A stretch of 60,120 nt of DNA, taken from contig JAISZL010000015.1 in assembly GCA_031269245.1 (NCBI GenBank), positions 1 through 60,120 on the forward strand, given 5' to 3'. The notes below the pieces were generated by a model. It saw only the letters and a list, made by a program, of their open reading frames with translations. It had not been told where the DNA came from and did not search any database. This document shows, piece after piece, positions 10,731 to 55,063 of this stretch (position 1 is its first letter; every line of letters begins with the position of its first letter). Position numbers and translations under genes: made by a program. The DNA is from Synergistaceae bacterium. Its GTDB lineage: Bacteria > Synergistota > Synergistia > Synergistales > Synergistaceae.

Positions 10731-11600
10731 ATGACGCGCGGGCGGGTAAGGACGAAAAAATCGGCCATATTTCGTGCTGTATTGCTTATCATAGCCGGCG
10801 TGTTTTTCGCGGCGGTGCAGGTGCGGTTTTGGGACGACGGCCTTTCGTTTTACGCGTTCGACGTCGGGCAGGGAGACTCGTTCCTGTTTCGCTTTCCCGG
10901 AGGGGAGAACGTGCTGATTGACGCCGGCACGAGGCGTTCCGCCGACAGGCTGACGGCGAAGCTGCGCTCGCTGGGTGTGGAAAAGATAGACATCCTGGTC
11001 GCCTCCCACCCTCACGAGGACCACATCGGAGGAATGGTCTCCGTCATCGACGCGTTTGCCATCGGCAAGATATGGGACAGCGGGTATAATCACGGTTCGT
11101 CTGTGCAGCGGGCGATGCTCGAGCGAGCGCGGGAGAGGAATATACGCTTCGGGCGCCCGAGGGCCGGTTTCACTGAGTCACTTTCCGGCGCCAGGATCGA
11201 GGTCCTGGCGCCGGAAAGACCCATTTCCGGCACGGAGAGCGACGCGAACAACAACTCCCTAGTGCTGAGGGTCGTATACGGTGACGTGACGTTTCTGATG
11301 ACCGGCGACATAGAGGAAGAGGGGCGGGCGCTCGTCGGCAGGTTCCCCAGAGCGTCGGTGCTGAAGGCGTCGCACCACGGGAGCCGCAACGGGACCGACG
11401 CCAGACTTCTCCGGGAGGTGTCGCCCGACGTCGCCATCCTGAGTTGCGGGCGTGGGAACCCCTATGGGCATCCGCACCGGGAGACGATGAGGCTGTTCCG
11501 CGAGTTCGGGGTCAAGACGTACTCCACCGAGGGGGGCGATATAAAGATAGTCTCCGACGGCAAAAAGTACGAGGTAGAGGCGAGAGGGGCCGGGAAATGA
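10731..11600 (+). CDS. ComEC/Rec2-like metallo-beta-lactamase fold hydrolase
   Basis: This is a 289-residue protein. An N-terminal hydrophobic segment (AIFRAVLLIIAGVFFAAVQV) is followed by an MBL domain. Visible motifs are FDVGQGDSFLF, LIDAG, the metal-binding HPHEDHIGG, FLMTGDIEEEG, LKASHHGSRNG and ILSCGRGNPYGHPH. This is the pattern of the C-terminal domain of the DNA uptake protein ComEC, here as a stand-alone, membrane-anchored or secreted enzyme. Such proteins are candidate periplasmic nucleases or phosphodiesterases. The frame is open from a GTG at 10650, but the ATG at 10731 sits just before the anchor and fits the promoter at 10643-10670. The stop overlaps the start of the next gene by four bases, so the two are coupled. 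Confidence 0.85.
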   Translation: MTRGRVRTKKSAIFRAVLLIIAGVFFAAVQVRFWDDGLSFYAFDVGQGDSFLFRFPGGENVLIDAGTRRSADRLTAKLRSLGVEKIDILVASHPHEDHIGGMVSVIDAFAIGKIWDSGYNHGSSVQRAMLERARERNIRFGRPRAGFTESLSGARIEVLAPERPISGTESDANNNSLVLRVVYGDVTFLMTGDIEEEGRALVGRFPRASVLKASHHGSRNGTDARLLREVSPDVAILSCGRGNPYGHPHRETMRLFREFGVKTYSTEGGDIKIVSDGKKYEVEARGAGK

Positions 11601-11821
11601 GCGAAATCCATCTTTTCGTGGACCGGGTGGAGAGCGGCATAGCGACGCTGCTGGCCGCGTCTCCGTGGGACGGCGAGGTCAAGGTGCGCTCGGACATGCT
11701 CCCCACCGGGGCGCGGGAGGGGACGTGGCTTTGCGCGTCCTTGGCGGTGGATGCGCACAAGAGGGAGGAAACGGCGCGAGACATCGACGCACTGATGAAC
11801 GAACTGGGCGACTCACCGTGA
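11597..11821 (+). CDS. DUF3006 domain protein
   Basis: This is a 74-residue protein that starts in an ATGA overlap with the MBL-fold gene. It begins HLFVDRVESGIATLLA and continues with a small beta-barrel-like sequence with an acidic/basic C terminus, as in DUF3006 proteins. Those genes are typically found directly beside ComEC-like MBL hydrolases in Firmicutes. A role as a small partner or regulator of the hydrolase is inferred from this coupling; no activity is known. Confidence 0.75.
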   Translation: MSEIHLFVDRVESGIATLLAASPWDGEVKVRSDMLPTGAREGTWLCASLAVDAHKREETARDIDALMNELGDSP

Positions 11822-14217: not shown

Positions 14218-14342
14218 GATCTCCCGCGGGAGGCCCAGCGCTCCCGTGGCACCCGAAGAGGTTTGCTTACCGCTGCTTCCTTCCGGACCTGACGGGGTTC
14301 GCAATTCTTCGCCGCATGGGACTGAGCCTCCGGCGGGAGATC
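14218..14342 (-). ncRNA. ffs: Signal recognition particle RNA (4.5S-like, small bacterial type)
   Basis: The minus strand carries the hallmark apical loop of SRP RNA, GTCAGGTCCGGAAGGAAGCA, with AGCGGTAAGC following. The outer ends pair: GATCTCCCGC at the 5' end with GCGGGAGATC at the 3' end, and GGAGGC with GCCTCC inside. This makes a single long hairpin of about 125 nt without an Alu domain. A good promoter lies upstream at 14357-14385, so the true 5' end is probably near 14350. The RNA is followed by GACTTTTTC, which with the terminal helix may form the terminator. SRP RNA binds Ffh (domain helix 8) and directs membrane protein insertion. Confidence 0.93.
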
Positions 14343-16383: not shown

Positions 16384-16895
16384 CCGCGGAGAAGCAGCAC
16401 GCTCTTTACGGGGTTTTGATGGCCTTCGTCGTGGTACTTTTTCTAGTGGCTCAGTTTGTCCTGCAACATACGCTGAAGAGCGCGTCGGAGGAATTGGCGT
16501 CCGTATCGACGAACCTGGCCTCGGAGAAGAGGACAGCCGAATCCAGGAAATTGTTGGTCGAGCGGTACAAGTCGTTTGAGAGCCTCGCAATGAACTACAG
16601 CCGGTCCGAGCGGGTTTTCCCGGTGAATGCCCGGGAGTTTTTCACCGCTATGGACAAGGTTTTGAAGGACAATTTGGTAGAATACACGAGCAGAAGCGCC
16701 TCGCCGCAAACCACCCCAGGCGGCAGGCTGGAGCTTCAATTTTCGTTCAGCGGTCCCTATTACGGCGTCTTGAAGGCACTGGCGGCGCTCCGGGAGAACG
16801 AGTACGTCATGAGGGTCTCCAACCTTGTCATAGAGGCTGAGGCAGAGGGCCGGGTATCGGGCAGCATGAGCGTAATAAGCACGGTGAGGAGCTAG
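16380..16895 (+). CDS. pilO: Type IV pilus assembly protein PilO-like
   Basis: This is a 171-residue protein with one N-terminal transmembrane helix (LYGVLMAFVVVLFLVAQFVL), then a predicted coiled coil (SEELASVSTNLASEKRTAES) and a small alpha/beta domain near the C terminus. This is the PilO/GspM architecture. PilO pairs with PilN to form the periplasmic alignment ring. Translation is coupled to pilN by an ATGA overlap. Confidence 0.72.
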   Translation: MTAEKQHALYGVLMAFVVVLFLVAQFVLQHTLKSASEELASVSTNLASEKRTAESRKLLVERYKSFESLAMNYSRSERVFPVNAREFFTAMDKVLKDNLVEYTSRSASPQTTPGGRLELQFSFSGPYYGVLKALAALRENEYVMRVSNLVIEAEAEGRVSGSMSVISTVRS

Positions 16896-16906
16896 GGGGG
16901 CTGCAA

Positions 16907-17524
16907 ATGGCTGACAGTTCATCCGCGAGAAAGACGGCGGCCGCCTCTCAGCCGAGGGGCAAACAGCAGAAACCGAGCGAGCAGAGGATCAAGAGTTTGT
17001 TATTCATCATCGCCCTTGTCGCTTGCTGCGCCGGGAGCTATTATTTTTATATGACCACGCTTCGGTTGATAGAGGACGGCGGTAACGCGGTGCGTAGGTT
17101 TACGAACCAGCAGGTTCCCCCTGACTCGACCCTGGCCGACGAGACCAAGGCGATCGATACGGTCGAGTCCGGTCTGTCCGACATAACGAAGGCAACGAGC
17201 ATGTCCATGCAGACCGCGCTGTTGGCTGAGATATCGGGCAAATATCCGGTGGCGCCTTCGAACAGGATCATGCCCGCGCCTAGTACGGGCGCTGCCGCCA
17301 GCGATCTTGCCGAGATCGAGCCTGATCCACCCATGGTCACGGTTGTGGCGATACTCATCAAGGGGGACGACAAGATAGCCATGTTGGATGTGGCCGGCGA
17401 GGAAGGCGCTCTGATAGTCAGGCAGGGCAGCAAATTTTCAAGCGGCACGGCAAGGGTTACTAAAATAGATGCGAAGGGTGTGACATATACATGGATGAAA
17501 AAAAGCATTCAAGTCCCATTTTGA
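16907..17524 (+). CDS. PilP/GspC-like inner-membrane to secretin connector
   Basis: This 205-residue protein has a basic cytoplasmic tail, one transmembrane helix (KSLLFIIALVACCAGSYYFY), a linker with Pro/Ala/Ser, and a C-terminal beta-sandwich (PPMVTVVAILIKGDDKIAMLDV...GALIVRQGSKF). The C-terminal domain resembles the homology region of PilP or GspC, which contacts the secretin's N domains. PilP proper is a lipoprotein; this protein has a membrane helix as GspC does. It is followed by the secretin gene with a 34-bp overlap. Confidence 0.65.
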   Translation: MADSSSARKTAAASQPRGKQQKPSEQRIKSLLFIIALVACCAGSYYFYMTTLRLIEDGGNAVRRFTNQQVPPDSTLADETKAIDTVESGLSDITKATSMSMQTALLAEISGKYPVAPSNRIMPAPSTGAAASDLAEIEPDPPMVTVVAILIKGDDKIAMLDVAGEEGALIVRQGSKFSSGTARVTKIDAKGVTYTWMKKSIQVPF

Positions 17525-46687: not shown

Positions 46688-46716
46688 TTGACAGGTTGTG
46701 AGAGTGTGACTAGAAT
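46688..46716 (+). promoter_or_regulatory. Promoter of the ilv-leu operon
   Basis: A perfect TTGACA (46688-46693) and TAGAAT (46711-46716) are 17 bases apart. Transcription would start near 46723, about 50 bases before the leader peptide ATG and about 305 before ilvN. Confidence 0.75.
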
Positions 46717-46773
46717 GTCAACCACTTTGAACGTGAGCGGTGATATGGCATGGCCCGGGAGGAGGGATTCGCG

Positions 46774-46860
46774 ATGCGCTACGTTATGGGTTTAATGAAC
46801 GTCATAATTCTGGTTCTGGTACTTAGCCGCGGGTCCCGCCCGAGGTCGATTGGTGCTTGA
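46774..46860 (+). CDS. ilvL: Branched-chain amino acid leader peptide
   Basis: This is a 28-codon reading frame with GGGAGGAGGGA 5 bases before its ATG. The peptide has eight consecutive branched-chain residues, VIILVLVL, at codons 10-17 (46801-46824), written with Val, Ile and Leu codons of mixed types. The sequence continues as SRGSRPRSIGA and stops at 46858-46860. A terminator hairpin follows 22 bases later, and the biosynthetic operon follows that. This is the classic layout of an attenuation leader: ribosome stalling at the Val/Ile/Leu codons when the charged tRNAs are scarce would alter folding of the RNA. The peptide itself has no expected function. Confidence 0.85.
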   Translation: MRYVMGLMNVIILVLVLSRGSRPRSIGA

Positions 46861-46918
46861 ACTGGCATAAATCGAAAACCGGGTCGGGATCCTTAAAAGA
46901 GGGTCCCGGCTTTTTTTT
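46831..46918 (+). promoter_or_regulatory. Transcription attenuator: antiterminator and terminator of the ilv-leu operon
   Basis: Terminator: GTCGGGATCC (46883-46892) pairs with GGGTCCCGGC (46901-46910) around an 8-base loop and is followed by eight Ts (46911-46918). Antiterminator: GGGTCCCGCCCG (46831-46842) can pair with CGGGTCGGGATCC (46880-46892) over 12 bp with one bulge, using up the left arm of the terminator. The antiterminator's upstream arm begins 6 bases after the Val/Ile/Leu codon run, so a stalled ribosome would leave it free, while a ribosome reaching the leader stop would cover it. No T-box features were seen. Confidence 0.82.
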
Positions 46919-47026: not shown

Positions 47027-47620
47027 ATGAAATGCACTTTCAGCGTTTTGACACAGGACACTCCGGGGGTTTTGATGAGGATCGCGTGTCTCTTCTACAA
47101 GCGGAACTACAACATCGAGAGCTTGAGCGTCAGCTCCGCTAACCTGCCGGGCATATCCAGGTTCACGATAGTGATCGAGGGAGACGAGTGGGCGCACGAA
47201 CAGGTTGAGAAACAGCTCGCCAAGCTCGTCGAGGTGATATCGGTGGACAACCTCAACAGGGGCGGCAAGTTCGTCGAGAGGTGGCTCTCCCTTATAAAGG
47301 TTCGCGCCACGATGGAGACGAGGCCGCACATACTTCAGATCGCCGACATTTTCAGGTGCCGGGTCGTGGACATGGGGAGCACCGCGCTGACGCTGGAGGT
47401 CACGGGCGACGAGGGCAAGGTCGCGGCGTGCATGGAGGCGCTTCGAGCCTACGGGATAGTCGAGGTAGCGGGCTCGGGCTCCGTGGCGCTGGGCCGCGCC
47501 GGTTTCAACGCGTCCGGCGCGCTTGACGGGGACGTCCCCGACCCGCGCAAGCTCGACAAGATCGAGTTCGGCCGCGTCGCGGCGGAGTCATGCGGCGGGG
47601 TTGCTCGCGGCGTCGCGTGA
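47027..47620 (+). CDS. ilvN: Acetolactate synthase small (regulatory) subunit
   Basis: This 197-residue protein starts with an ACT domain (KCTFSVLTQDTPGVLMRIACLFYKRNYNIESLSV, then SRFTIVIEGDE) and continues with the second ferredoxin-like domain of ALS small subunits (LIKVRATMETRPHILQIADIFRCRVVDMG...LTLEVTGDEGKV). The extra C-terminal 30 residues or so exceed the usual length of about 165 and look unstructured. It gives valine feedback inhibition of IlvB. AGGGGG lies before the ATG. The catalytic subunit gene is at the far end of the operon (53384-55063), an unusual separation. Confidence 0.92.
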   Translation: MKCTFSVLTQDTPGVLMRIACLFYKRNYNIESLSVSSANLPGISRFTIVIEGDEWAHEQVEKQLAKLVEVISVDNLNRGGKFVERWLSLIKVRATMETRPHILQIADIFRCRVVDMGSTALTLEVTGDEGKVAACMEALRAYGIVEVAGSGSVALGRAGFNASGALDGDVPDPRKLDKIEFGRVAAESCGGVARGVA

Positions 47621-47811: not shown

Positions 47812-48822
47812 ATGGCGAAGGTGTACTATGACAGGGATGCGAATCTGAAGATTTTGGAAGGCAAGACGGCGGCGATTTTGGGTTACGGCAGCCAGGGGCA
47901 CGCCCACGCTCAGAACCTGAGGGACAGCGGCGTGTCCGTCATCATAGGGCTGCACGACGGGAGCCGTTCGCGCGCCGCGGCCGCGGCCGACGGCTTCGAG
48001 GTATACGCGGTGGACGAGGCGGCGCGCCGGGCCGACATCATCATGTTCCTCATACCGGACCATCTTCAGGCTGACATATACGACAAGCTGGTGGCGCCGA
48101 ACATGAAGGACGACGCGGTGCTGGCGTTCGCGCACGGTTTCGCCGTTCACTTCGGGCAGGTGACGCCGCGCGCCGATAACGACGTCTTCATGATCGCGCC
48201 GAAGGGGCCGGGCCACATCGTCCGCCGCATGTACACCGAGGGCAAGGGGGTCCCGGCCCTTGTCGCGGTGCATCAGAACGCGTCGGGCCGCGCGATGGAC
48301 ATAGCTCTCGCCTATGGGGCCGGCATCGGCGCCGGGAGGTCCGGCATCCTGGAGACGACCTTCCGCGAGGAGACGGAGTCGGACCTCTTCGGCGAGCAGG
48401 CCGTTCTTTGCGGCGGCGTGAGCGAGCTGATCAAAGCCGGTTTCGAGACGCTCGTCGCGGCGGGGTATCAGCCGGAGGTCGCCTACTTCGAGTGCCTGCA
48501 CGAGATGAAGCTGATCGTGGACCTCATCTTCGAGGGCGGCCTCTCGTGGATGCGCTACTCCGTCAGCGACACGGCGAAGTACGGCGACAGCACAGCTGGG
48601 CGCCGCGTGATCGACGACAGGGCGCGGGCTGTCATGAAGCGGCTCCTGGAGGAGATCCAGGATGGCACCTTCGCGAAGGATTGGATACTCGAGAACAGAG
48701 CGGGCCGCCCGAAGATGAAGAAGTGGGTCTCGTCCGAGCGCGCCCATCTGATCGAGCGTGTCGGCAGGGATCTGAGGGGCATGATGCCCTGGCTCGACAA
48801 AAAAGAAGCTCCGGAGTACTAG
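47812..48822 (+). CDS. ilvC: Ketol-acid reductoisomerase
   Basis: This is a 336-residue class I KARI. The N-terminal Rossmann domain has the dinucleotide loop [17 protein letters not shown] near residue 25, and further sites are [28 protein letters not shown] and the C-terminal metal-binding [17 protein letters not shown] and [18 protein letters not shown]. It isomerises and reduces acetolactate or acetohydroxybutyrate to the dihydroxy acid. GAGAGGAGTG precedes the ATG. leuA begins two bases after its stop. Confidence 0.95.
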
Positions 48823-48824
48823 AG

Positions 48825-50366
48825 ATGAGCGGCCCCGATGGAATTGTAAGAATTTTCGACACGACCATGCGGGATGGCGAGCAGGCGTCGAGAATAAACC
48901 TCAACACCGGCGAGAAGATCCAGATAGCGCGCCAGCTGGAGCGGCTTGGCGTCGATATAATCGAGGCCGGTTTCCCGGCCGCCTCCCCCGGGGACTACGA
49001 CGCGGTGCTCAACGTGGCGAGGGAGGTGGAGACCCCCGTGGTGGCGGGGCTTGCCCGCACGAGGGAGCACGACATAACGGTCGCGGGCGATGCGCTCAAA
49101 GGCGCGGCGCACCCGCGCATACACGTCTTCATAGCGACCAGCCCCATCCACATGGAGTACAAGCTCAAGCTGACCCCAGCCGAGGTGCTGAGGGAGGTGG
49201 AGCGCGGCGTCTCGCTGGCTAAGGGCATCGTGGACGACGTGGAGTTCTCCGCCGAGGACGCGAGCCGCTCCGACATCGATTTTTTGACGGAGGTCTTCAC
49301 TTGCGCGATAGATCGCGGCGCCACGACCCTGAACATCCCCGATACGGTGGGGTACGCGATGCCCGCCGAGTTCGAGGAGTTCTGCCGGACCATCATAAAC
49401 CGGGTCGGCAGGGACGGCGTCGTCTGGTCAGTCCACTGCCACAACGACCTGGGGCTCGGCGTCGCGAACTCACTCGCTGCGGTCAGGGGCGGGGCGAGGC
49501 AGGTGGAGTGCACCATAAACGGTCTGGGCGAGCGAGCCGGCAACGCATCTATGGAGGAGATAGTGATGAGCCTTCGGACCAGGGCCGACCACTTCGGCGC
49601 CGACACGAGGATCGACACGACGAAGTTCTACGGCACGAGCAAGCTCGTCTCGCTCCTGACCGGCGTCTCGGTCCAGCCCAACAAGGCGATAGTGGGGATC
49701 AACGCGTTCTCCCACGAGGCGGGCATCCATCAGCATGGGATGCTCTGCAACAAGGCCACCTACGAGATAATGACGCCGGAGAGCGTCGGCGCCCCCGGAA
49801 CCGACCTCCATCTCGGCAAGCACTCCGGGCGCCACGCGTTCAACGAGCGCGTCGAGAAATTGGGCTACCAGCTTACGGACGAGCAGAGCAGAGCCGCGTT
49901 CGAGCTCTTCAAGGATCTGTGCGACAAGAAAAAGGACGTGTCGGACGGGGACATAGAGGCCCTTCTGATGGACAGGGTGGTGCAAGTGACCCCGGAGCGC
50001 AGGTACGAGCTGAAGGACTACACGGTGACGGTCGGCTCCGGCGGGAAACCGACGGCCTCCATAACCCTGTCCCACGGCGGCGCCGAGACGACTGAGGCGT
50101 CGGTAGGGAACGGCCCCGTTGACGCGGCTTACAAGGCGATACTGAAGATACTGGGCTTCTCGCCGGAGCTGGCGGAGTTCCGCATAAGGGCGACGAGCGA
50201 GCTGGCGGACGCCCTCGGCGAGGCGCGCGTGATCCTGCGCTACAAGGACATAAAGGCTCAGGGCAGGGGCGCCAGCACCGACATCATAGAGGCGACGATA
50301 AGTGCCTACGTGGAGGCCGTGAACCGCCTCTACTCGTTCGCCGCCGCCAAGGAGGTCGTCATTTAA
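48825..50366 (+). CDS. leuA: 2-isopropylmalate synthase
   Basis: This is a 513-residue LeuA type 1. The HMGL-like catalytic barrel has FDTTMRDGEQASRINL near the N terminus, CHNDLGLGVANSLAAV (metal-binding His pair region), GLGERAGNASMEEIVM and NAFSHEAGIHQHGM. The C-terminal regulatory domain (from about residue 390) contains TVTVGSGGKPTASITL and RYKDIKAQGRGASTDIIEA, which bind the feedback inhibitor leucine. It condenses acetyl-CoA with ketoisovalerate. The ATG at 48825 is two bases behind the ilvC stop; the open frame continues far upstream only because of codon bias. leuC starts directly after its stop. Confidence 0.95.
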   Translation: MSGPDGIVRIFDTTMRDGEQASRINLNTGEKIQIARQLERLGVDIIEAGFPAASPGDYDAVLNVAREVETPVVAGLARTREHDITVAGDALKGAAHPRIHVFIATSPIHMEYKLKLTPAEVLREVERGVSLAKGIVDDVEFSAEDASRSDIDFLTEVFTCAIDRGATTLNIPDTVGYAMPAEFEEFCRTIINRVGRDGVVWSVHCHNDLGLGVANSLAAVRGGARQVECTINGLGERAGNASMEEIVMSLRTRADHFGADTRIDTTKFYGTSKLVSLLTGVSVQPNKAIVGINAFSHEAGIHQHGMLCNKATYEIMTPESVGAPGTDLHLGKHSGRHAFNERVEKLGYQLTDEQSRAAFELFKDLCDKKKDVSDGDIEALLMDRVVQVTPERRYELKDYTVTVGSGGKPTASITLSHGGAETTEASVGNGPVDAAYKAILKILGFSPELAEFRIRATSELADALGEARVILRYKDIKAQGRGASTDIIEATISAYVEAVNRLYSFAAAKEVVI

Positions 50367-51668
50367 ATGACCGCGCCTAAGGACAATCCCGGAGGCGGTA
50401 TGACGCTGGCCGAGGCGATAATCGCGTCGCATACGGCGGATTCGGTGGCACCCGGCGCCGTCTGCCGGACCAGGGTCGACTTCGCCTTCGCCAACGACAT
50501 CACCGGGCCTCCCGCGATAGAGGAGTTCAGGAGGATGGGCGCCGTGCGCGTGTTCGACCCGGAGCGGTGCGCCATCATCCCGGACCACTTCACCCCAAAT
50601 AAGGACATAGCGTCCGCCGAGGGGGCTAAACGGGCTAGGGAGTTCGCGCGCGAGCAGGGGATGAAGTACTGGGAGGTCGGCCGCGTCGGCGTGGAGCACG
50701 CGTTCATACCGGAGACGGGCAACGCCCTTCCGGGGGAGATAATCATAGGCGCGGACAGCCATACCTGTACCTACGGCGCGCTCGGCGCGCTCGGCACCGG
50801 GATGGGGCAGACCGACCTCGCCGCCGTGTGGGCGCTGGGGGAGACGTGGCTTCGGGTGCCCGAGACGCTCAGGGTGATATTGCGCGGCGCGCCGTCCAGG
50901 TGGGTCGGCGGCAAGGATCTGATAATTCACCTGATCGGCGTGATCGGGGTGGAGGGCGCCCGCTACATGTCCATCGAGTTTCATGGGGACGCCGCGGCCA
51001 GCCTGCCGCAGGACGACCGCTTCACCATGTCCAACATGGCCATCGAGGCCGGCGCCAAGTGCGGGCTCTTCGTGCCCGACGAGACGACCATGACCTACGC
51101 CTCCGCGCGCGGCACGCGGGACTTCACGCCGGTATATCCCGGCGAGGGCGCGAGGTACGCCCGGACGGTCGAGATCGACGCGTCCTCGGTCGAGCCGACG
51201 GTGGCCCTGCCCCACCTTCCGGGCAACGCCCGGCGAGCCAGGGACTGCGCGCATCTGGAGATCGACCAGGTCTTCATAGGCAGCTGCACGAACGGGCGGT
51301 CGAGGGACATCGAGATAGCGGCTGATATGCTCGCGGGCCGGACGGTCCACGAGAGGGTGAGGCTGATTGTCATCCCCGCCTCCTACGAAGTTTACAACGA
51401 GGCCCTGGAGCGCGGGTGGCTCAGGATATTCTCGGAGGCGGGCGCCGCCGTCTGCACCCCGACGTGCGGGCCGTGCATGGGCGGGCACCTTGGCATACTC
51501 GCCGCCGGGGAGCGGGCCGTCTCGACCAGCAACCGCAACTTCGTCGGCAGGATGGGACACAAGGAGAGCGAGATAATACTGGCGTCCCCGGCGGTCGCCG
51601 CGGCGAGCGCCATACTGGGCAGGGTCGCCGATCCTCGCGAGGTCTCCGGCGACACCCGCCCTTCGTGA
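50367..51668 (+). CDS. leuC: 3-isopropylmalate dehydratase large subunit
   Basis: This 433-residue aconitase-family subunit has the length of the bacterial/archaeal LeuC2 (homoaconitase-like) type. Visible features are IIPDHFTPNKDIASA, GADSHTCTYGALGALGTGMGQTDLAAVWALGETW, IGSCTNGRSRDIEIAADML and the cluster cysteines CTPTCGPCMGGHLG. Together with SHTCT these supply the three Cys ligands of the 4Fe-4S cluster. With LeuD it isomerises 2- to 3-isopropylmalate. The ATG directly abuts the leuA stop. Confidence 0.95.
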   Translation: MTAPKDNPGGGMTLAEAIIASHTADSVAPGAVCRTRVDFAFANDITGPPAIEEFRRMGAVRVFDPERCAIIPDHFTPNKDIASAEGAKRAREFAREQGMKYWEVGRVGVEHAFIPETGNALPGEIIIGADSHTCTYGALGALGTGMGQTDLAAVWALGETWLRVPETLRVILRGAPSRWVGGKDLIIHLIGVIGVEGARYMSIEFHGDAAASLPQDDRFTMSNMAIEAGAKCGLFVPDETTMTYASARGTRDFTPVYPGEGARYARTVEIDASSVEPTVALPHLPGNARRARDCAHLEIDQVFIGSCTNGRSRDIEIAADMLAGRTVHERVRLIVIPASYEVYNEALERGWLRIFSEAGAAVCTPTCGPCMGGHLGILAAGERAVSTSNRNFVGRMGHKESEIILASPAVAAASAILGRVADPREVSGDTRPS

Positions 51669-51694: not shown

Positions 51695-52212
<518 letters not shown>

Positions 52213-52216
<4 letters not shown>

Positions 52217-53361
52217 TCGAGAAAACGGCCGGGGATAAGAAAAAGTTCAGCATAGCCGTCATAAATGGCGACGGCATAGGCCCGGAGGTCATGTCCGAGG
52301 CACGGGCGATAGCGTCGGCCGCCGCGTCGCGGGAGGGCGCGTCCCTCGAGTGGTCCGACTACCCCTTCGGGGCGTCCCATTACCTCATGACCGGCGAGAT
52401 CCTGCCGGAGTCGGCGATACGGGAGATCGGACAGCACGACGCGATGATGCTGGGCGCGATAGGCGACCCAGCCGTCAAGCCCGGAATCCTGGAGCGGGGC
52501 ATCCTGCTCGCGCTGAGGTTCGTGTTCGACCAGTACGTCAACCTGCGCCCGGCCGTGTCATACCCTAACGTCCCCGTCCCCGTGCCCTCCGGCGGCCCCA
52601 TCGACTCGGTGGTGGTGAGGGAGAACACCGAGGACCTGTACATGGGCTTGGGCAGTGTCTCGGAGGACGGTCTCCTCGAATCGCCCTTGGACCTGGAGCG
52701 CGGGGGATACTCCCTGAGAGGACACTTGAGCCTGTCGGTGTCGCCCCGCATGGGGTTTGCCGCGCAGGTGGCCCTGAACACGCGCCACGGGACGGAGCGG
52801 ATAGCGCGCTACGCGTGCGAGACGGCGCGGAGGCGCGGTGAGGACAGGGTGACGATAGTCACGAAGTCCAACGCGGCGCCGGCGCTTTACGGCTTTTTCG
52901 AGGACACGGCGAAGAGCGTGATAGAGTCCGAGTTCCCTGGAATCGAGTGGAGCACGGTGAACGTAGACGCGCTCTGCTACCACCTCGTCCGCAACCCCTC
53001 CGCTTACGGGGTGCTGCTCTGCCCCAACCTGTTCGGCGACATCGTGAGCGACCTTCAGGCCGGGCTGGCCGGCGGGCTGGGCACCGCCGCCGGGGGCAAC
53101 ATCGGCGGCGGGCTCTCGATGTTCGAGCCAGTCCACGGCTCGGCGCCCGACATCGCGGGCACCGGCAGGGCGAACCCGATAGCCGCCATTCTGTCGGGCG
53201 CGCTCATGCTGAGGCACTTGAGCCTGGAGGGGGCGGCGGTCGCCGTGGAGCGGGCCGTCAGGACCTACCTGGAGGGCGCGTCCAGCGATGAGAGGCCGTT
53301 CGAGTTCGGCGGGTCCGCGTCCTGCGGGCAGGTCGGCGCGGCCGTGATGAAAAATATTTGA
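52213..53361 (+). CDS. leuB: 3-isopropylmalate dehydrogenase (LeuB-type decarboxylating dehydrogenase)
   Basis: This is a 382-residue member of the isocitrate/isopropylmalate dehydrogenase family. The NAD and substrate segments are [76 protein letters not shown] and [25 protein letters not shown]. The loop reads RENTEDLY, which is more like isocitrate or homoisocitrate dehydrogenases than the RELTGGIY of classical LeuB. The leu operon context makes 3-isopropylmalate the likely substrate, although wider specificity is possible. The ATG at 52213 overlaps the leuD stop; a GTG at 52204 is an alternative. Confidence 0.88.
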
Positions 53362-53383
53362 AAGAAGGCGGGTGGGTATAAAG

Positions 53384-55063
53384 ATGGAGCTGACGGGGGC
53401 ACAGATTGTCATGAAGTCGTTGGAGGACGAGGGAGTCGAGACCGTGTTCGGGCTGCCCGGCGGTCAGGTCATCCCCCTCTACGACGCGATTTACGATTCT
53501 CCAATAAACCACGTCCTCGTTCGCCACGAACAGGCGGCCGCCCACGCGGCGGACGGGTTTTCCAGGGCAGGGGAGGGTGTCGGGGTGTGCATAGCGACGT
53601 CCGGCCCGGGAGCCACGAACCTCGTGACCGGCATAGCGACGGCCTGCATGGACTCGTCTCCGATGGTGGCGATAACGGGCCAGGTGGCGACCTCCGCCAT
53701 AGGCACGGACGCCTTTCAGGAGGCGCATATATTGGGCATAACGCTCCCTGTGGTCAAACACAGTATGCAGGTGCGCACGCCTGAGGACATTCCCCAGATC
53801 TTGAGGGACGCGTTCTTCATCGCGTCGACGGGACGCCCCGGCCCGGTCGTGGTCGATCTGCCGTCCGACGTGCAGAAGTCTCGCGGCGAGTACAGGCGCC
53901 CCAAGGGCTCATGCCTTGGCTACCCCGGATATTCCGCCGAGCTGCCGGAGGACCTGCGGCGCGCGGACGAGGCGATTGACGCCATAAGGAGGGCCAAGCG
54001 CCCTGTTTTGATCGCGGGCAACGGGGTCAACGTGTCGCGCGCATACGATCAGCTGAGGGAGTTTTCGGAAAAGCTGGAGGTGCCGGTCGCCACGTCGCTG
54101 CTGGGCAAGGGGACCATCGGCGCGGACCACCCCAACCACATCGGGATGATGGGGATGCACGGGGTCGCCGCCGCTAACAGGGCGATCATGAACGCGGACC
54201 TGGTAATCGCCGTCGGCTCGCGTTTCAGCGACAGGAGCACCGGCAAGCAGGCGGAGTTCGCCCTCGCGTCGAAGGTCATACACATCGACGTTGACAGCGC
54301 GGAGATTCGCAAGAACATTGACGCTGGCATTTGGCTCATCGGAGACGCGGGCAGGGTGCTGCGGCTGCTGATGGACGAGGCCGGGGGACACGACTCCGCG
54401 GCCCGCCGCGCGTGGCTGGACGGCATACGCGTCATGGACGCGGCCGAGCCCCTCGCGCGCGACGCTTCCGACGGCCGTCTGCACGCGTGGCGGATATTGG
54501 ACGCCATCGACGGCGCGACGTCGGGCGACGCCACGATCGTCACCGAGGTCGGCCAGCACCAGATGTGGACGGCGTTGTACCACAGGGCCCTGCGCCCGAG
54601 GCGCTTCATAACGTCCGGCGGCCTGGGCACGATGGGATTTGGCATCCCGGCGTCCATCGGCGCTCACTTCGCGCGTCCCGGCGAGCCCGTGATATGCGTG
54701 GCGGGCGACGGCAGCGCCATGATGAACATACAGGAGCTCGACACGTACGCCAGATACAATCTGCCGATAAAGGTCATGATATTCGACAACAACTGTCTCG
54801 GCATGGTGAAGCAGTGGCAGGAGCTGTTCTACGAGAGGCGTTTCTCGAACACCCTCTACACACGCTGCCCCGATTTCGTGAAGATCGCGGAGGGCATGGG
54901 CGTGGAGGCGTTCGCGGTGGAGAGCCCCGACGGCCTCGAACGGTCCGTAGAGCGCGCGCTCGAGATCCCAGGCCCAGCGCTCGTGCACTTCAAGATACCT
55001 CAGAGCGACAACGTGTACCCGATGGTCCCGGCGGGCGAGTCGCTCCGCAACATGATCCTCTGA
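53384..55063 (+). CDS. ilvB: Acetolactate synthase large (catalytic) subunit
   Basis: This is a 559-residue ThDP enzyme. The N-terminal domain has FGLPGGQVIPLYDAI, the catalytic Glu in VRHEQAAAHAADGFSRA, and SGPGATNLVTGIA. The C-terminal ThDP-binding motif is VAGDGSAMMNIQELDT ending in DNNCLGMVKQWQE. It condenses two pyruvates, or pyruvate and 2-ketobutyrate, into acetohydroxy acids. The ATG at 53384 follows AAGGCGGG (a GTG at 53372 overlaps that site). It ends the operon and lies six genes away from its regulatory subunit ilvN. Its TGA overlaps the first base of a dispersed repeat. Confidence 0.94.
   Translation: MELTGAQIVMKSLEDEGVETVFGLPGGQVIPLYDAIYDSPINHVLVRHEQAAAHAADGFSRAGEGVGVCIATSGPGATNLVTGIATACMDSSPMVAITGQVATSAIGTDAFQEAHILGITLPVVKHSMQVRTPEDIPQILRDAFFIASTGRPGPVVVDLPSDVQKSRGEYRRPKGSCLGYPGYSAELPEDLRRADEAIDAIRRAKRPVLIAGNGVNVSRAYDQLREFSEKLEVPVATSLLGKGTIGADHPNHIGMMGMHGVAAANRAIMNADLVIAVGSRFSDRSTGKQAEFALASKVIHIDVDSAEIRKNIDAGIWLIGDAGRVLRLLMDEAGGHDSAARRAWLDGIRVMDAAEPLARDASDGRLHAWRILDAIDGATSGDATIVTEVGQHQMWTALYHRALRPRRFITSGGLGTMGFGIPASIGAHFARPGEPVICVAGDGSAMMNIQELDTYARYNLPIKVMIFDNNCLGMVKQWQELFYERRFSNTLYTRCPDFVKIAEGMGVEAFAVESPDGLERSVERALEIPGPALVHFKIPQSDNVYPMVPAGESLRNMIL

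Follow-up and report, generated by a model that had tools for sequence, protein, structure and literature searches.

The question raised by this locus is how an operon for branched-chain amino acid synthesis is controlled in Synergistaceae. The window, the whole stretch of 60,120 nucleotides analysed here, comes from the genome of a Synergistaceae bacterium (a 2.34-Mb draft, 97% complete) and contains genes in the order ilvN-ilvC-leuA-leuC-leuD-leuB-ilvB, preceded by a leader region. In anaerobic Firmicutes, operons of this kind often have T-boxes. The first-pass annotation of this DNA proposed instead that ribosome stalling on Val/Ile/Leu codons controls the operon, and treated the element as a stand-alone attenuator of the enteric kind. 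We describe the structure of the leader, its conservation and its relatives elsewhere in the phylum Synergistota.

Structure of the leader element

The features of the leader and of the operon are listed in Table 1. The consensus promoter, the 28-codon leader peptide with eight consecutive branched-chain codons, the terminator with eight Ts and the mutually exclusive antiterminator, all claimed in the first-pass annotation, were found as described. The promoter hexamers are TTGACA (46688-46693) and TAGAAT (46711-46716), and transcription probably starts near 46723. The two arms of the antiterminator form 12 pairs, which exclude the terminator, and the segment 46827-46895, including the enclosed hairpin, folds at −36.8 kcal/mol. 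Two features go beyond the earlier description: the stop codon of the leader peptide lies in the loop of an inner hairpin whose pairs covary, and the 5' arm of the antiterminator is inside the leader ORF.

The window, read in all six frames, has three runs of at least eight Ile, Leu or Val codons (mean of 0.03 in shuffled sequences). Only the VIILVLVL run belongs to a short ORF with a Shine-Dalgarno (SD) sequence and a terminator; the other two are in segments of 82 and 8 codons. The control codons avoid GTG, ATC, and CTC, which the operon genes use commonly, and include GTT, GTA, ATT, and CTT, which are rare in those genes (4-11% of their amino acid).

Table 1. Features of the ilv leader and its operon in the window, and two further leaders of the same genome (G000)
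Feature	Position	Strand	Remarks
Sigma-70-type promoter, TTGACA-17-TAGAAT	46688-46716	+	17-nt spacer; 11/12 matches; top-scoring of three sites in 10 kb
Shine-Dalgarno sequence AGGAGG of leader ORF	46760-46765	+	From the sequence
Leader peptide ORF, MRYVMGLMNVIILVLVLSRGSRPRSIGA	46774-46860	+	28 codons; ATG 46774, TGA 46858-46860
Control codons GTC ATA ATT CTG GTT CTG GTA CTT	46801-46824	+	VIILVLVL
Region 2, antiterminator 5' arm	46831-46842	+	Within leader ORF
Antiterminator inner hairpin	46846-46875	+	Leader stop codon in loop
Region 3, antiterminator 3' arm	46880-46892	+	Common to terminator
Intrinsic terminator	46881-46918	+	14-pair stem 46881-46912; T8 46911-46918
ilvN, acetolactate synthase small subunit	47027-47620	+	PRK11895, TIGR00119 above cut-off
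ilvC, ketol-acid reductoisomerase	47812-48822	+	TIGR00465 above cut-off
leuA, 2-isopropylmalate synthase	48819-50366	+	TIGR00973 above cut-off; start approximate
leuC, isopropylmalate dehydratase large subunit	50367-51668	+	
leuD, isopropylmalate dehydratase small subunit	51695-52216	+	
leuB, isopropylmalate dehydrogenase	52204-53361	+	Family match and operon context
ilvB, acetolactate synthase large subunit	53372-55063	+	TIGR00118 above cut-off
Paralogue leader, IIIII, MSIRHSRAQQGIIIIIGSAAPPRGIGV	C4:8012-8113 (L097:1513-1614)		Before PorC/PorB-type 2-oxoacid oxidoreductase operon; R1 43.1 bits
Paralogue leader, VVTMMC, VNGYSFATKFVVTMMCASRGSSLGATAFR	C3:661-762 (L098)		Before MetQ-like lipoprotein gene; R1 31.6 bits

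In the same genome, ilvD has no attenuator in front of it, and trpE was not found. Elsewhere in the window, a bacterial small SRP RNA is located at 14229-14328 on the minus strand (71.3 bits).

Conservation and covariation

A search of Synergistota genomes for conserved leaders and covarying stems, suggested with the first-pass annotation, found both. The named relatives are Synergistaceae metagenome-assembled genomes. A leader is present at all 46 of the same-family ilvN loci with enough upstream sequence; it consists of a short ORF, with six to eight Ile, Leu or Val codons per eight, followed by a conserved tail. An SD-like motif also precedes the leader start in close relatives. Of the loci examined in other Synergistota families, thirty carry such a leader upstream of ilvN as well. 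The terminator and the region 2:3 duplex are both present in 74 of these 76 leaders, with a median duplex energy of −23.9 kcal/mol (one script). Because the leader is kept across relatives, a chance origin is excluded. In the close group, the minority-base fractions at codon positions 1, 2, and 3 of the control codons are 0.24, 0.04, and 0.26, the coding-like pattern expected when hydrophobic amino acids are kept.

Covariation was evaluated in 20 close sequences and in a wider set of 39 sequences from several families. In the close set, the antiterminator and the inner hairpin have standard pairs in 94.5% of cells and seven pairs changed on both sides; their covariation score was reached by none of 500 shuffles, and every slid register failed. 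For the inner hairpin (helix 2), 5 of the 11 pairs have changes on both sides, and 91.7% of cells are paired. The terminator stem, with 92.3% of its cells paired in the close set, did not beat the shuffles there. In the wide set, the antiterminator and the terminator are both above shuffles and slides; the terminator figures are nine pairs and 51 cells changed on both sides. These data give good support to the stop-codon hairpin as a component of the switch.

In four genomes of another family, f6 (L053-L056; genera g40, g41, g43, and g47), IlvN is 74-80% identical to that of the window and is preceded by a leader of the same kind, while the other IlvN sequences of f6 are only about 31-41% identical to it. 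These identities suggest that the operon and its attenuator may have been transferred together. One contig of another genome carries ilvN with its leader twice, in inverted orientation and with identical scores (G055:C46:4893-5526 and 16753-17386).

Folding with a ribosome and proposed mechanism

The leader transcript was folded at varied lengths with a ribosome footprint imposed at chosen codons. When the transcript ends at 46893, about 12 antiterminator pairs form with the ribosome at codons 10-15, and 2.2 falling to 0.9 pairs with the ribosome at the stop codon. For transcripts ending at 46893-46904, the corresponding values are 9-12 pairs versus about 2 falling to 0.1. Over these lengths, the antiterminator is thus lost in the fold model once the ribosome occupies the stop codon, in agreement with the sequence of states that classical attenuation predicts. 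In the full-length transcript, thermodynamics favours the terminator wherever the ribosome is placed; therefore, read-through must be kinetic. Without a ribosome, the model still forms the antiterminator in transcripts ending near 46893. A protecting hairpin between the SD sequence and region 2 appeared in the full-length minimum-energy fold; however, the ensemble of shorter transcripts prefers the antiterminator, and this hairpin is not claimed here.

The following mechanism is proposed. When charged Val-, Ile- or Leu-tRNA is scarce, the ribosome would slow at codons 10-16, leaving region 2 and the inner hairpin free. Region 2 would then pair with region 3, and RNA polymerase would read through into the operon. 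When charged tRNAs are ample, the ribosome would run on to the stop codon within the inner-hairpin loop and break the antiterminator; region 3 would pair with region 4, and transcription would end near 46918. Control of the ilvNC-leuACDB-ilvB operon by stalling and kinetic competition is probable, and a response to these amino acids may be expected by analogy. The claim that ribosomes stall on Val/Ile/Leu codons gains comparative support from the in-frame leader, the codon-like variation, the covariation, the lack of a T-box match and the fold model.

Probably homologous leaders with other control codons

A covariance model built from ilv leaders only (R1) also matches, over its full length, other loci of the same genomes whose control codons differ. 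Two of them are in the genome of the window (Table 1). The leader before the oxidoreductase operon has counterparts in eight other genomes of the family; there, the same gamma-subunit gene follows a similar leader with as many as six Ile codons. Many relatives have MMMC leaders stronger than that before the MetQ-like gene, located before MetQ, MetX, and MetY. Other types reach R1 scores of 75.9 bits (phe-type), 64.1 bits (panB), 50.5 bits (paaK-type), and 46.6 bits (aspartokinase). Full-length matches to the other types mostly score 31-76 bits, compared with at most about 27 bits for terminator-only matches. The leader of the window scores 72.5 bits with the family model, of whose training set it is a member.

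A second model, trained with the paralogues of the window's own genome added (R2), has matches in 37 of 43 chosen genomes at E ≤ 0.01. At E ≤ 1e-5, it has matches in 59 of 96 near-complete genomes, with up to 13 in one genome; the genomes of genus g38 (family f6), searched identically, have none. About 60 paralogue matches were read individually; most have an in-frame leader with an SD sequence and a stop codon at model position 39-42. Several of the genomes are single contigs (e.g. G001, G014, G015, and G072), and contamination of draft bins therefore does not explain the paralogues.

Tests of the paralogue duplexes are individually weak (median z of −1.3) because the sequences are GC-rich; the best duplex nearly always falls on the same conserved arm. 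When all types were aligned together with MAFFT, the oxidoreductase type came out with its region 2 displaced by one base; therefore, covariation across types was not counted on that alignment. The two aromatic leaders of the window's own genome gave only partial R1 matches (23.8 and 18.3 bits) and are not counted as family members. A leader with YSY/FSF codons and a terminator, with a partial model match, precedes an apparent tyrA-aroB-aroA-aroC cluster (G000:C28, about 11456-11650; L120 and L129). Another leader with FSF codons and a terminator is found in the region of G000:C18:11213 (L122 and L128), where the next gene encodes a DedA-type-like membrane protein, not an aromatic function, and a PaaK-like gene is located further along.

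These leaders could also have arisen independently, with the window holding an isolated classical attenuator and the others resembling it only through GC-rich GGGTCC-type arms, terminators and stop-codon hairpins. The modest duplex z-scores agree with such convergence, and function itself forces regions 2, 3, and 4 to resemble one another. Against convergence stand the full-length scores that a model of ilv leaders gives to other types, well above those of terminators alone, and the fixed spacing between the stop codon and region 2. The genomes of g38, which give no match, also argue against it, as do the leaders of Escherichia coli: the family covariance model has no match in the ilvL, ivbL, leuL, and thrL leader regions, and its best score, elsewhere, is 15.6 bits. 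We consider independent origins unlikely. The R1 scores relative to terminator-only matches and the lack of an E. coli match make homology within Synergistota the better reading.

For the homologous leaders, we favour an origin by duplication and codon replacement. One ancestral attenuator was probably copied within Synergistota and re-specified by codon exchange, giving up to about 12 homologous attenuators per genome that would control genes for Met, Ile, Leu, Val (including panB), Thr/Met, and aromatic metabolism and several unassigned transporters. The scaffold of leader tail, antiterminator, stop-codon hairpin and terminator would be retained, while the control codons would be exchanged to match the downstream gene. 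Of the original proposal, attenuation is upheld; the stand-alone character is not, since the element belongs to a family that spans the phylum and whose members differ in their control codons.

Agreement between control codons and downstream genes

The control codons agree with the functions of the genes that follow. Met leaders (MMMC..MMMC) precede MetQ, MetX, and MetY genes, Ile leaders a threonine dehydratase-like gene, and Leu leaders LeuA and LeuC genes. The leader FDVVVVVDV precedes the gene of PanB, whose substrate, 2-ketoisovalerate, is the precursor of valine. Leaders with MTMT (Thr/Met) precede homoserine dehydrogenase and aspartate kinase genes, and Phe/Tyr leaders precede PaaK-type ligase genes. 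With a set of amino acids assigned to each pathway, matching residues make up a mean fraction of 0.37 versus 0.12 in permutations (0 of 50,000), and 0.39 versus 0.14 with one leader per gene family (1 of 200,000); the sets were drawn up with the leaders already known, and these figures are thus descriptive.

Some leaders stand before genes with less definite functions. Genes that follow Ala/Met or Met leaders encode a protein of about 420 residues without a Pfam match (L163, L195, and L203) and an aspartate-aminotransferase-like product (L189). Membrane transporters without an assigned substrate follow Tyr/Phe or Leu/Ile leaders (L170, L213, L164, and L162); the control codons would predict their substrates.

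A different role for the leader would be that the peptide itself acts, the tail SRGSRPRSIGA and its relatives arresting the ribosome or the peptide working as a small protein in trans. The tail is conserved as a peptide in addition to the RNA, and trans-acting leader peptides are known, peTrpL being one. However, region 2 and the stop-codon hairpin, with their covarying pairs, occupy the same stretch as the tail, the tail residues vary by type (GSPPGA, NAAPPR, and GVGPPR), and the control codons track gene function. An active peptide is very improbable. Even less credible is regulation by a T-box, riboswitch or repressor with an incidental leader: T-boxes commonly serve such operons in anaerobic Firmicutes and repressors such as HisR exist in Synergistota (PMC9413887), but a search of Rfam 15 at the gathering score, covering the window and 20 paralogue loci, gave no T-box or other regulatory RNA match, and the leader is kept across the phylum.

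With its anatomy, conservation and covariation, the likeness of its paralogues under the covariance model and the agreement of codons with genes demonstrated, the element is very probably a ribosome-mediated attenuator of ilvNC-leuACDB-ilvB that belongs to a homologous, codon-exchanged family of Synergistota.

Comparison with known systems

The attenuators of E. coli ilvL (ilvGMEDA), ivbL (ilvBN), and leuL (leuABCD) likewise combine a leader with Ile, Val or Leu codons, an exclusive antiterminator and terminator, and genes of the same pathway. Compared with the enteric attenuators, the gene order of the Synergistaceae operon differs, region 2 is inside the leader ORF, the inner hairpin carries the stop codon in its loop, and one scaffold is common to leaders of several amino-acid types. 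Outside Proteobacteria, leaders with branched-chain amino acid codons have been described for Mycobacterium tuberculosis ilvB1NC and actinobacterial ilvB (PMC13236596, PMC1262725, and PMC10272879). They belong to another phylum and differ in sequence, and the parts of these reports consulted describe no codon-swapped homologous family. The closest experimentally tested system is M. tuberculosis ilvB1, in which induction was lost once LVVI had been replaced by AAAA (PMC13236596).

According to a 2010 survey, which itself contributed histidine leaders of Firmicutes, leader-peptide systems had until then been known only from Proteobacteria and Actinobacteria (PMC2965389). Stav et al. (2019), whose survey of intergenic regions covered Thermovirga lienii (Synergistetes), listed upstream ORF candidates with Phe/Tyr codons near shikimate genes; the source genome of these candidates is not given in the main text, which, in the parts consulted, mentions neither ilv nor a codon-swapped family (PMC6429828). 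Our literature search, which did not extend to a 2010 survey (PubMed 20198868) or the supplement of PMC6429828, found no report of leader-peptide attenuators in Synergistota. The switch mechanism is classical; the homologous, codon-swapped set across the phylum is the new part and appears to be undescribed.

By analogy only, the set resembles the T-box family, in which one scaffold with an exchangeable specificity codon occurs in many copies per genome for different amino acids. Unlike the Synergistota leaders, T-boxes bind tRNA directly and need no translation of a leader.

If the family is real, amino-acid control in an entire phylum would rely to a large extent on leader-peptide attenuation, and evolution by codon swapping could be traced directly in sequence. 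The control codons would serve as function labels for the downstream genes. Five Ile codons before the 2-oxoacid oxidoreductase, a four-subunit-type 2-oxoacid:ferredoxin enzyme, suggest that it may have a role in isoleucine supply, and Phe/Tyr codons before PaaK-type aryl-CoA ligases suggest possible synthesis of aromatic amino acids from aryl acids. Tyr codons mark a transporter without an assigned substrate. If the single-ancestor reading is true, these leaders would form a counterpart of the T-box family based on leader peptides, and substrates of uncharacterised genes could be predicted from them.
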